Source of the DNA: Vulcanimicrobiota bacterium
GTDB lineage: Bacteria; Vulcanimicrobiota; Vulcanimicrobiia; Vulcanimicrobiales; Vulcanimicrobiaceae
Assembly: GCA_003168375.1 (NCBI GenBank)
Contig: PMSI01000001.1
Span: 1,302,001 to 1,366,000, forward strand
Direction of reading: 5' to 3'
Length of the DNA stretch: 64,000 nucleotides
Within the stretch, counting starts at the first letter, position 1. The number at the start of each line of letters is the position of its first letter. Below, one piece after another: positions 336 through 2,571 of this stretch. The notes under the pieces are model-generated. The model made no database searches. It saw only the letters and a program-made list of their open reading frames with translations, and was not told where the DNA came from. The position numbers were made by a program, and so were the translations under genes.

Positions 336-428
336 GAGCGGTATCGCCTCACGCCAAAGGGCGACCCCGGGGACATGCATCGCGCGCGATGCAGAGGTTA
401 CGCCCGGGGTCTACGCGCTCAGTATACC
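336..428 (+). ncRNA. Structured element, copy 1 (candidate RNA)
   Basis: A 9-bp helix GACCCCGGG/CCCGGGGTC (363-371 with 403-411) encloses a 7-bp helix TGCATCG/CGATGCA (376-382 with 387-393) capped by a 4-nt loop. The internal loop carries GACA on the 5' side and GAGGTTACG on the 3' side. A small hairpin precedes it (336-340 with 345-350, one bulge) and CAGTATACC follows. Copy 2 lies 341 bp downstream with identical helix spacing and four compensatory base-pair changes. The strand is not certain. No known RNA family was recognised. Confidence 0.45.
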
Positions 429-668
429 GTACCGCCGGTCATCGCGACAACCTATGGATGCTCCAATCAGTGGGCACGCGGCACCGTTGCCCCCAGCGCT
501 CCGCGTACGCTCGTTCGGCGACCCTGTCAAGTCAGTCAAAATCCGTCTGAGCTGTCAAAGCTGCCAAAACCTGCGCATAGTGGGCCATGGATTCTGCGGG
601 TCTACCGCACGTCTATTCGGATCATGTCGATCTTGAGTGACCCCTGTCGCCGCACGGTGAACAAAAAA

Positions 669-770
669 GAGGGGGCGTTCATCGCCTCCCTCTCCAAACC
701 ATCGACTCCGGGGACTTTCATGCCGTCGCATGAAGAGGTTGATCCCGGAGTCTGCTCGGGTCAGTGTACC
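669..770 (+). ncRNA. Structured element, copy 2 (candidate RNA)
   Basis: The same fold as copy 1: outer helix GACTCCGGG/CCCGGAGTC (704-712 with 744-752) and inner helix TTCATGC/GCATGAA (717-723 with 728-734) with loop CGTC. The internal loop strands are GACT and GAGGTTGAT, so GAC and GAGGTT are shared with copy 1. The preceding hairpin is stronger here (669-677 with 683-692, one bulged T), and CAGTGTACC follows. Relative to copy 1, one outer pair changes C-G to T-A and three inner pairs change on both strands. The strand is not certain. Confidence 0.45.
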
Positions 771-877
771 TCACGCGCGATCATGTAGCAAGCGACTTCG
801 TGGCGCTAAGAAAGATCCTGCGCTCCGTCCGTACACCGGCAAACTTGCCGTTTCATGAATTACGCGAAGGGCCGAGG

Positions 878-1348
878 CTAGGCGATCTTTCGGTCGACGG
901 ACTTCGTGTGGTTCGACCTGGATCGCACGACCAAGCCGGTTCGGGATTTCACGGGTGCGCTGGCCTTCGCTGGCACGTTCGGAATTAATCCGCGGTACGC
1001 CTCAATGAACTTCTCTCGCCTTCGATCCTTGGTGCGCGGGACGAACGCCGGCATGAAGTCGTAGCCTAGGGCTTCAGCGATCATCACGAGCCGACTGAGG
1101 GTCGCCCGGCTCAGGCCTCCGTGAAGATCGCGCGAGATCTGTGGCGGCTTCGCGTTCATTCGGCGGGCCAATTCGGCGGCGGTCACATGCTCGAGTTCCA
1201 TGATTCGCTGCAGCAGCTGCTCGACCGATGCCTCGGCGACGATGGCATTGATTTGTGCCGCACGCACGGGATCGCGTTTGGTCCGTTCGACGAGGGTCGT
1301 TCCACCTCGCCGTTTTCTTGCTTCATCCGCGGTCATAATACGTGCCAT
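878..1348 (-). CDS. XRE-family antitoxin (HigA-like)
   Basis: A 156-residue helix-turn-helix protein. The XRE-type domain lies around residues 55-95 (TAAELARRMNAKPPQISRDL, then a second helix ending in ALGYDF). The N-terminus is basic and the C-terminal tail is long and charged. It starts 26 bp inside the end of the upstream toxin-like gene, so the two are probably co-translated in the toxin-first order typical of HigBA modules. Such antitoxins bind the toxin and repress their own promoter. That role is inferred from family and arrangement, not from a specific match. Confidence 0.65.
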   Translation of the reverse strand: MARIMTADEARKRRGGTTLVERTKRDPVRAAQINAIVAEASVEQLLQRIMELEHVTAAELARRMNAKPPQISRDLHGGLSRATLSRLVMIAEALGYDFMPAFVPRTKDRRREKFIEAYRGLIPNVPAKASAPVKSRTGLVVRSRSNHTKSVDRKIA

Positions 1349-1751
1349 TATTCACTCGCTTGAAATAGTTGTGCCGTGCTAACAATGTTCGCGCCACGAC
1401 GCGATCGCCGGTCTTATCGCGCTTCTCGCCTTCTTTGAGGTAGTGGCCGAAGACGATCCATGTGTGCCCGCGCGGTTCGCGGAATGCAGTAAAGCGATGC
1501 TTGCCGGCCTTCATTGCGAGCACGAGCGGCTTCTCATGCTCTGCGTTGACCCGCGACTGTGCCGGTCTCTGTCCCGGCTCGACGTTGCCCCAATGGTCCA
1601 GACTGCCTTCGAAGTCGTTTTGCTCGCGAGGACGGAGCGATTCGAATGCGTCGAATCCCGGCATCGAACCGTCATCGGCCCAGAACCATTCGAAGCTTCG
1701 GTGCATCCCGTTATGAATCGTTAGGTCAGAAGCAGATCGTCGCTTTCCCAT
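1323..1751 (-). CDS. RelE/HigB-like toxin
   Basis: A 142-residue protein. Its C-terminal half (KHRFTAFREPRGHTWIVFGH, then a basic stretch KEGEKRDKTGDRVVARTLL) resembles the RelE/HigB or Gp49-like mRNA-interferase fold, in which a hydrophobic strand is followed by a K/R-rich helix. It precedes and overlaps the XRE antitoxin gene, which supports a HigBA-type type II toxin-antitoxin module. The N-terminal 60 residues are less recognisable. The upstream region is AT-rich (AACATAAAGGTTACC), consistent with an autoregulated promoter. The toxin assignment rests on context and weak motif similarity. Confidence 0.55.
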   Translation of the reverse strand: MGKRRSASDLTIHNGMHRSFEWFWADDGSMPGFDAFESLRPREQNDFEGSLDHWGNVEPGQRPAQSRVNAEHEKPLVLAMKAGKHRFTAFREPRGHTWIVFGHYLKEGEKRDKTGDRVVARTLLARHNYFKRVNNGTYYDRG

Positions 1752-1895: not shown

Positions 1896-2543
1896 TTGCG
1901 GCACGAGGTCGGCGGCTTCTACGCCCCCGACGGCATCATCGACGCTCCGCTCGGCCCGCTTGCCTATCGCGCCGTCCTCGAATGCAAGAGCGCGCCGAAC
2001 GTCAAGTTCGTCTCCCAACCCCGGCCCGAAGAAGCCGCTAAGTTTCGCGACTCGAGCAAAGCCGACTTCGCGGTCTTGATCGGCCCGGATTTCCACGCCG
2101 GCGAATCGTTCGCGCAAGAGATCGAGGCGCACGCGATCTCCGTCTGGACCGTCGAAGACGTCGTCACCGCGCTGCGCATCGACGTCGACACCTACGAATG
2201 CCGCGCCCTCTTCGCACCCGGTTTCGTCTACGACCGCCTCGCCGAGCTCGAGTGGAACCGCACGCATGGCGACGAGAAGCGCGCTGCGATCGTGCGCCAA
2301 ATCCTGCGCCGCGAAGGCTACGCCGCTCAGTCTACGATCGTCGGCCACGTCGCCCCGTCCGACGCTCCGGTCCTCACGCTCGATGCCGCCATGCTCCTCG
2401 TCGAAACGGCGCTCACCCACGCCGGCGCCACCGTCTGCGCCACCCGCGAGGAAATCCACGCCGGCATGGAAGACCTCACCCGCGCGGGCGAAGCGATCCG
2501 CATCCCCGACCGCGACGGCATCATCATCCGCCGCGGCCTGTGA
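1896..2543 (+). CDS. Restriction-endonuclease-like protein, 5' end uncertain
   Basis: A 215-residue soluble protein. The first half looks like a PD-(D/E)xK nuclease fold: an acidic DGIIDAPLG stretch, then AVLECKSAP with the E-x-K signature, and later an AVLIGPDF strand. The C-terminal 60 residues look like a small winged-helix domain (EEIHAGMEDLTRAGEAIRI). The TTG start used here is the only near-canonical one. The frame stays open back to about 1836 and encodes plausible extra N-terminal sequence (GEFLAAKVRAL) with no start codon, so the gene may be 5'-truncated. No methylase or specificity gene lies nearby. Substrate unknown. Confidence 0.5.
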   Translation: MRHEVGGFYAPDGIIDAPLGPLAYRAVLECKSAPNVKFVSQPRPEEAAKFRDSSKADFAVLIGPDFHAGESFAQEIEAHAISVWTVEDVVTALRIDVDTYECRALFAPGFVYDRLAELEWNRTHGDEKRAAIVRQILRREGYAAQSTIVGHVAPSDAPVLTLDAAMLLVETALTHAGATVCATREEIHAGMEDLTRAGEAIRIPDRDGIIIRRGL

Positions 2544-2571
2544 TTGGTTCCGGTGCGGCGAGGGATTCTAC

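Follow-up and report, generated by a model that had tools for sequence, protein, structure and literature searches.

Two hairpins near the start of the analysed DNA (the window: 64,000 nucleotides of contig PMSI01000001.1 from a Vulcanimicrobiota bacterium) are, with a probability of about 80 %, copies of an AbiF-type RNA antitoxin that represents a new divergent subfamily and has outlived its lost toxin. We infer the antitoxin role from AbiF RNA, which neutralises its toxin via binding (PMC12373285). The class of system is already known; as far as the open literature shows, the divergent orientation, the spread, the orphan copies and the phage copies are new. The evidence comprises the RNA structure, promoter and terminator signals, a divergent linkage to HEPN genes and the synteny with a genome of the same genus.

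Both hairpins are 49 nt long and their starts lie 341 nt apart (Table 1), in agreement with the preliminary description in position and spacing. All 17 pairs are formed in either copy. Four pairs are changed on both sides between the copies, one in the outer helix P1 (9 bp in both copies; C-G to T-A) and three in the inner helix, and no pair is broken; the compensatory changes claimed earlier, one outer and three inner, thus hold pair by pair. The segments GAC and GAGGTT, formerly described as unpaired, are not wholly so, they hold the 2-bp helix P2, which reads AC/GU on the RNA strand and GC/GC in most relatives. A degenerate pattern of the hairpin matched twice in the 64-kb window, with 0.00 matches expected in dinucleotide shuffles. 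Folding of the single sequences surpassed shuffles by a modest margin (z -1.5 to -2.7), so the case for a structured RNA rests on comparison. In the same part of the window, the 12-mer TGGCCGATCCTG is present as a perfect tandem duplication (119-142), and a 36-nt stretch (300-335) recurs about 19 kb upstream on the opposite strand with 94 % identity (G000:C4:1282727-1282762, G000 being the window genome).

Table 1. Features at the hairpin locus, in window positions
Feature	Positions	Strand	Details
RNA copy 1	363..411	(-)	P1 GACCCCGGG/CCCGGGGTC, linker CGTA, P2 AC/GT, loop CTCT, P3 GCATCG-CGCG-CGATGC
Promoter-like sequence, copy 1	421..450	(-)	-10 TATACT (421-426), -35 TTGTCG (445-450), spacing 18; placed as in relatives
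Intrinsic terminator, copy 2	662..694	(-)	GAGGGAGGCG-hairpin-CGCCCCCTC, then TTTTTT; counterpart in G004
RNA copy 2	704..752	(-)	P1 GACTCCGGG/CCCGGAGTC, linker ATCA, P2 AC/GT, loop CTCT, P3 TCATGC-GACG-GCATGA
Promoter-like sequence, copy 2	763..791	(-)	-10 TACACT (763-768), -35 TTGCTA (786-791), spacing 17
Helix-turn-helix gene and small partner ORF	878..1751	(-)	gene 878-1348, partner 1323-1751; probable type II toxin-antitoxin pair
Restriction-like (Mrr_cat-like) ORF	1902..2546	(+)	syntenic anchor in common with G004, 92 % DNA identity

Judged by its signals, the hairpin RNA is transcribed from the minus strand, since promoter-like sequences and U-tracts, in copy 2 as part of an intrinsic terminator, are found on this strand; copy 1 is without a clear terminator equivalent. 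The promoters upstream of the hairpin copies are of a sigma-70-like type. In most copies, both window copies included, the -10 box lies 8-9 nt from P1, thus the transcript is expected to start at about P1. The plus-strand reading of the preliminary description was therefore dropped. The motif CAGTrTACC noted beside both copies is indeed conserved, but lies outside the RNA: read on the other strand, it gives the -10 region (TATACT/TACACT).

A covariance model built from the two window copies (R1) had these copies as its only matches in the 4.43-Mb genome. Run on the genome and 59 relatives, as the preliminary description had proposed, the model found one further strong copy, in the same-genus genome G004 (54 bits, E 7e-12); weak matches in two other relatives (G003 and G048) are probably due to chance. 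A plasmid BLAST search with the hairpin element gave no match. The G004 copy carries the promoter-like sequence TTGCCA-18-TATACT and directly adjoins, in divergent orientation, an ORF of 258 amino acids with the HEPN motif RNRVMH and a match to the PADLOC profile PD-T4-5 (E 4e-19). The AlphaFold model of this protein (pLDDT 89) had its best match among solved folds in PDB 8vz6, the complex of PbAbiF with its ncRNA (Z 11.9 over 211 residues, rmsd 4.2, 12 % identity), the next-best entry scored Z 5.2. With Foldseek alone, no significant match to the model was obtained, hence the predicted AbiF-like fold is supportive rather than conclusive. A search of PDB sequences with the HEPN profile returned mostly designed ankyrin repeats and was discarded as an artefact. 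Every HEPN homologue found in the relatives has an opposite-strand hairpin directly upstream, with a 5' loop motif (AACCTCT, GCCTCT or GCCACT, for example) and in most cases a U-rich stretch behind it, and the promoter of the RNA reaches up to or into the start of the HEPN gene. Among the aligned HEPN proteins, 38 of 38 matched PD-T4-5 in PADLOC and 34 of 38 matched Pfam Abi_2. The genome G007 has two truncated HEPN genes (L026:5106 and L029:3792, both on the minus strand), the divergent RNAs beside them are still intact.

The linkage was followed over larger distances with a second model, R2, made from 23 RNAs without any window sequence. Eighty-five HEPN homologue loci were available, 80 from a protein-alignment scan (one genome per species) and five from plasmids. 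R2 matched at 45 of them, with RNA and HEPN gene on opposite strands in every case; four shadow matches at the same places on the other strand had far lower scores. Nearly half of the matched loci (22) were absent from the training set of R2, and among these are loci of Alphaproteobacteria, Gammaproteobacteria, Actinomycetes and one cyanobacterium. At the 40 unmatched loci some looser hairpin variants were present, others showed nothing obvious. The search was also performed from the side of the RNA, ignoring the protein: R2 had 16 matches at E<=1e-6 in 289 alphaproteobacterial genomes; two of these matches (in G060 and apparently G341) were in R2 already. A divergent and adjacent HEPN ORF was present at 10 of the 14 remaining loci, all of which were inspected; L135, L139 and L140 were without a neighbouring HEPN gene, and L142 lies too near a contig end to tell. 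Three further RNAs, each a second copy in its genome (L125, L126 and L127), also adjoin a HEPN gene. Chance is the probable source of the R2 matches in L128 and L129. On the window itself, R2 gave 15 bits for copy 1 (E 0.056) and did not report copy 2. This model of distant copies barely scores the window, so the link between the window hairpins and the HEPN-linked RNAs runs through G004.

The consensus plan of the RNA consists of P1 (7-10 bp), a short linker, P2 (2-3 bp), the loop CUCU, the apical helix P3, P2' and P1'. In an alignment of 23 copies, 8 of 15 pairs showed two-sided changes, and the covariation score of 0.257 was above every slid control and above shuffles (0.155 +/- 0.014); kinship alone can exceed such shuffles, thus the score supports rather than proves an RNA structure. 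By parse of the structure, 52 copies have GC/GC as P2, and both window copies and the G004 copy have AC/GU; on this parse the exchange is a compensatory change. With many homologues and the covariation, the structured RNA proposed in the preliminary description is borne out.

The window and the G004 contig are syntenic: the block of terminator, RNA and promoter has 72 % DNA identity, the restriction-like ORF 92 % and an aldo/keto reductase gene 90 %, and window copy 2 is the syntenic counterpart of the G004 copy. The homology stops 18 nt inside the HEPN reading frame, just beyond the -35 box. The place of the G004 HEPN gene is occupied in the window by the helix-turn-helix gene and its partner. 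The toxin-antitoxin neighbour noted earlier is thus a probable pair, but not the partner of the RNA, which across phyla tracks HEPN genes instead. A HEPN homologue is absent from the window, and protein, PADLOC profile and alignment searches found none in the genome, which is about 97 % complete; a HEPN gene may be hidden in a gap or have diverged too far to be recognised. Given the synteny and the searches, the simplest reading is that the HEPN toxin gene was lost from the window locus and the RNA retained; the opposite history, a toxin gained in G004, is possible but less simple. The uracil-DNA-glycosylase-like gene of the G004 locus is located about 12 kb away in G000 (G000:C4 about 1290007-1290771), upstream of the window, and a second fragment, 137 nt long, is present near the Fic gene (about 1300709-1300845): the locus has been rearranged.

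The retained copies may also be dead relics of the same RNA family, functionless and not yet decayed after a recent loss of the toxin. We consider this a serious contender, at somewhat less than an even chance. It is in line with the missing HEPN gene at the syntenic locus and in the genome searches, with the G007 RNAs whose neighbouring HEPN genes are truncated and with the missing terminator of copy 1, which leans away from continuing use. Against it, four double changes have left every pair of either copy intact, both copies have kept promoter-like sequences, and orphan copies of other genomes are likewise intact. The intact pairing and the promoters let us lean towards a recent or continuing use of the window copies.

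As an RNA antitoxin, the element would be a small RNA of about 50-100 nt on the minus strand, with a transcript starting at P1. In its usual setting it would stand head-to-head with a gene for a HEPN RNase of the Abi_2 / PD-T4-5 / AbiF-D family, its promoter at, or overlapping, the toxin gene start. The folded RNA (P1, P2, loop CUCU, P3) would, by analogy with AbiF, bind the HEPN protein and block the RNase site; phage infection or loss of the locus would free the toxin. In the window genome the HEPN gene would have gone from the syntenic locus, leaving two RNA copies with promoter-like sequences. Transcription, RNA-protein binding, neutralisation and a present use of the orphan copies are steps that we infer. 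An RNA of this family whose main role is to control the expression of the divergent toxin gene, by promoter interference or as antisense, instead of protein binding seems improbable. The overlap of the RNA promoter with the HEPN gene start, or its position next to it, would suit such a control, and the C. difficile RNA also acts in cis on transcription (PMC12373285), but the conserved loop and the covarying helices point to a trans-acting product, as do orphans, tandem arrays and phage-borne copies. It is very unlikely that the hairpins are a repeat or mark one end of a mobile element, be it an insertion sequence, a MITE or an integron attC, and have no RNA function. An imperfect palindrome that is present twice, with toxin-antitoxin and restriction-like genes nearby, would fit, but the genome holds two copies only, position and orientation to HEPN genes are fixed across phyla together with promoter and U-tract, and a transposase was not seen adjacent, hence the attC and IS-end readings were dropped.

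At L143 (1795-3511), five RNA units about 200 nt apart form two groups flanking a HEPN gene. Every unit has a promoter-like sequence of its own and a second hairpin with a T-run; this array recalls the tandem pair of the window. Orphan copies were found at L139:2064-2104 and L140:2066-2107 in G256, a 2.2-Mb alphaproteobacterial genome, where they lie amid housekeeping-looking genes and retain promoter and loops. In viral contigs, a pattern search found 12 matches, a number near the rough chance estimate for the pattern alone; nine of these had 38-59 bits with R2 and a matching P1. A further viral scan added L160. The accepted viral copies represent five lineages (L148/L149, L150/L154, L151/L155, L147/L152/L156 and L160), whereas L145, L146, L153, L157, L158, L159 and L161 were rejected for a P1 mismatch, a low model score or an unrelated palindrome. 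The phage copies are located inside structural operons, among genes for the head-tail connector, head assembly or the tail, or else close to phage tRNA genes. No HEPN match was obtained in the viral records with the RNA, which reach 59 kb and are in part fragments, and no named phage with the L150 or L152 element was found. In those compared phage pairs that are not near-identical over their whole length, the element has 88-98 % identity against 49-82 % for most flanks. This better conservation of the element suggests, as a lead, that the solitary phage copies are under selection, as expected of an RNA decoy. A wider reading takes the widespread RNA as the antitoxin of PD-T4-5-type defence genes, the chromosomal orphans as trans immunity to incoming toxin loci, and the solitary phage copies, in at least five lineages, as toxin-disarming decoys; in this full form it is tentative and more probably wrong than right. 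Uses of the RNA in toxin immunity or counter-defence are directly testable with the orphan and phage-borne copies, with ToxI mimics and Racrs as precedents. If a divergent RNA for PD-T4-5/Abi_2 proves true, many 'single-gene' defence proteins become RNA-controlled toxin systems, and a covariance model of the RNA family would reveal in annotation the missing partner beside many 'Abi family protein' genes.

The RNA family spans several phyla, yet is invisible to Rfam: at gathering score as well as at permissive E-values, no family matched the window, G004 or the RNA of the relatives, while the abiF RNA of phage phiC2 was matched by RF03085 as positive control. The earlier statement that no known RNA corresponds to the hairpins is correct for Rfam families, but they are not an isolated unknown, they form a divergent subfamily of AbiF-type toxin-associated RNA. 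The abiF RNA RF03085 (RCd22 of C. difficile, with a copy in phage phiC2) has the consensus CCCGCC-A-AGC-CUCUCA...GCU-CAAAUC-GGCGGG. Window, G004 and relatives stay below its gathering score and share with it a GC-rich outer helix, a short RGC helix (AC/GU for GC/GC in the window), the CUCU loop, an apical part and the order of helices. Both RNAs adjoin a gene for a HEPN protein of the Abi_2/AbiF fold, here in the relatives and at the syntenic site in G004, though not at the window's own locus. The RNAs differ in the 3' loop and P3, and abiF RNA precedes its toxin gene in the same orientation, as in phiC2, whereas the RNA here is on the opposite strand at all R2 loci and in G004. AbiF with its RNA antitoxin is thought to be ancestral to Cas13 (Zilberzwige-Tal et al., as quoted in PMC12373285 and PMC12737573). 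Type III toxin-antitoxin systems (ToxIN) share the idea of an RNA antitoxin, the RNA here being of AbiF type. The same difference applies to the ToxI-like RNAs and the Racrs, phage RNA mimics of defence RNAs (PMC10651486), which are alike in presenting the solitary RNA half of a defence system in phages; counter-defence is a candidate role for the phage hairpins here. With PbAbiF-ncRNA (8vz6), the G004 protein has the predicted fold and the ncRNA linkage in common at low sequence identity; the complex is known for PbAbiF, the linkage here from the genes. PD-T4-5, a phage-defence gene and distant relative of AbiF/D (PMC9519451), matches all aligned HEPN proteins by profile. It was described as a single gene, and the literature searched names no RNA partner for it, whereas many of the HEPN homologue loci found here carry a divergent RNA.
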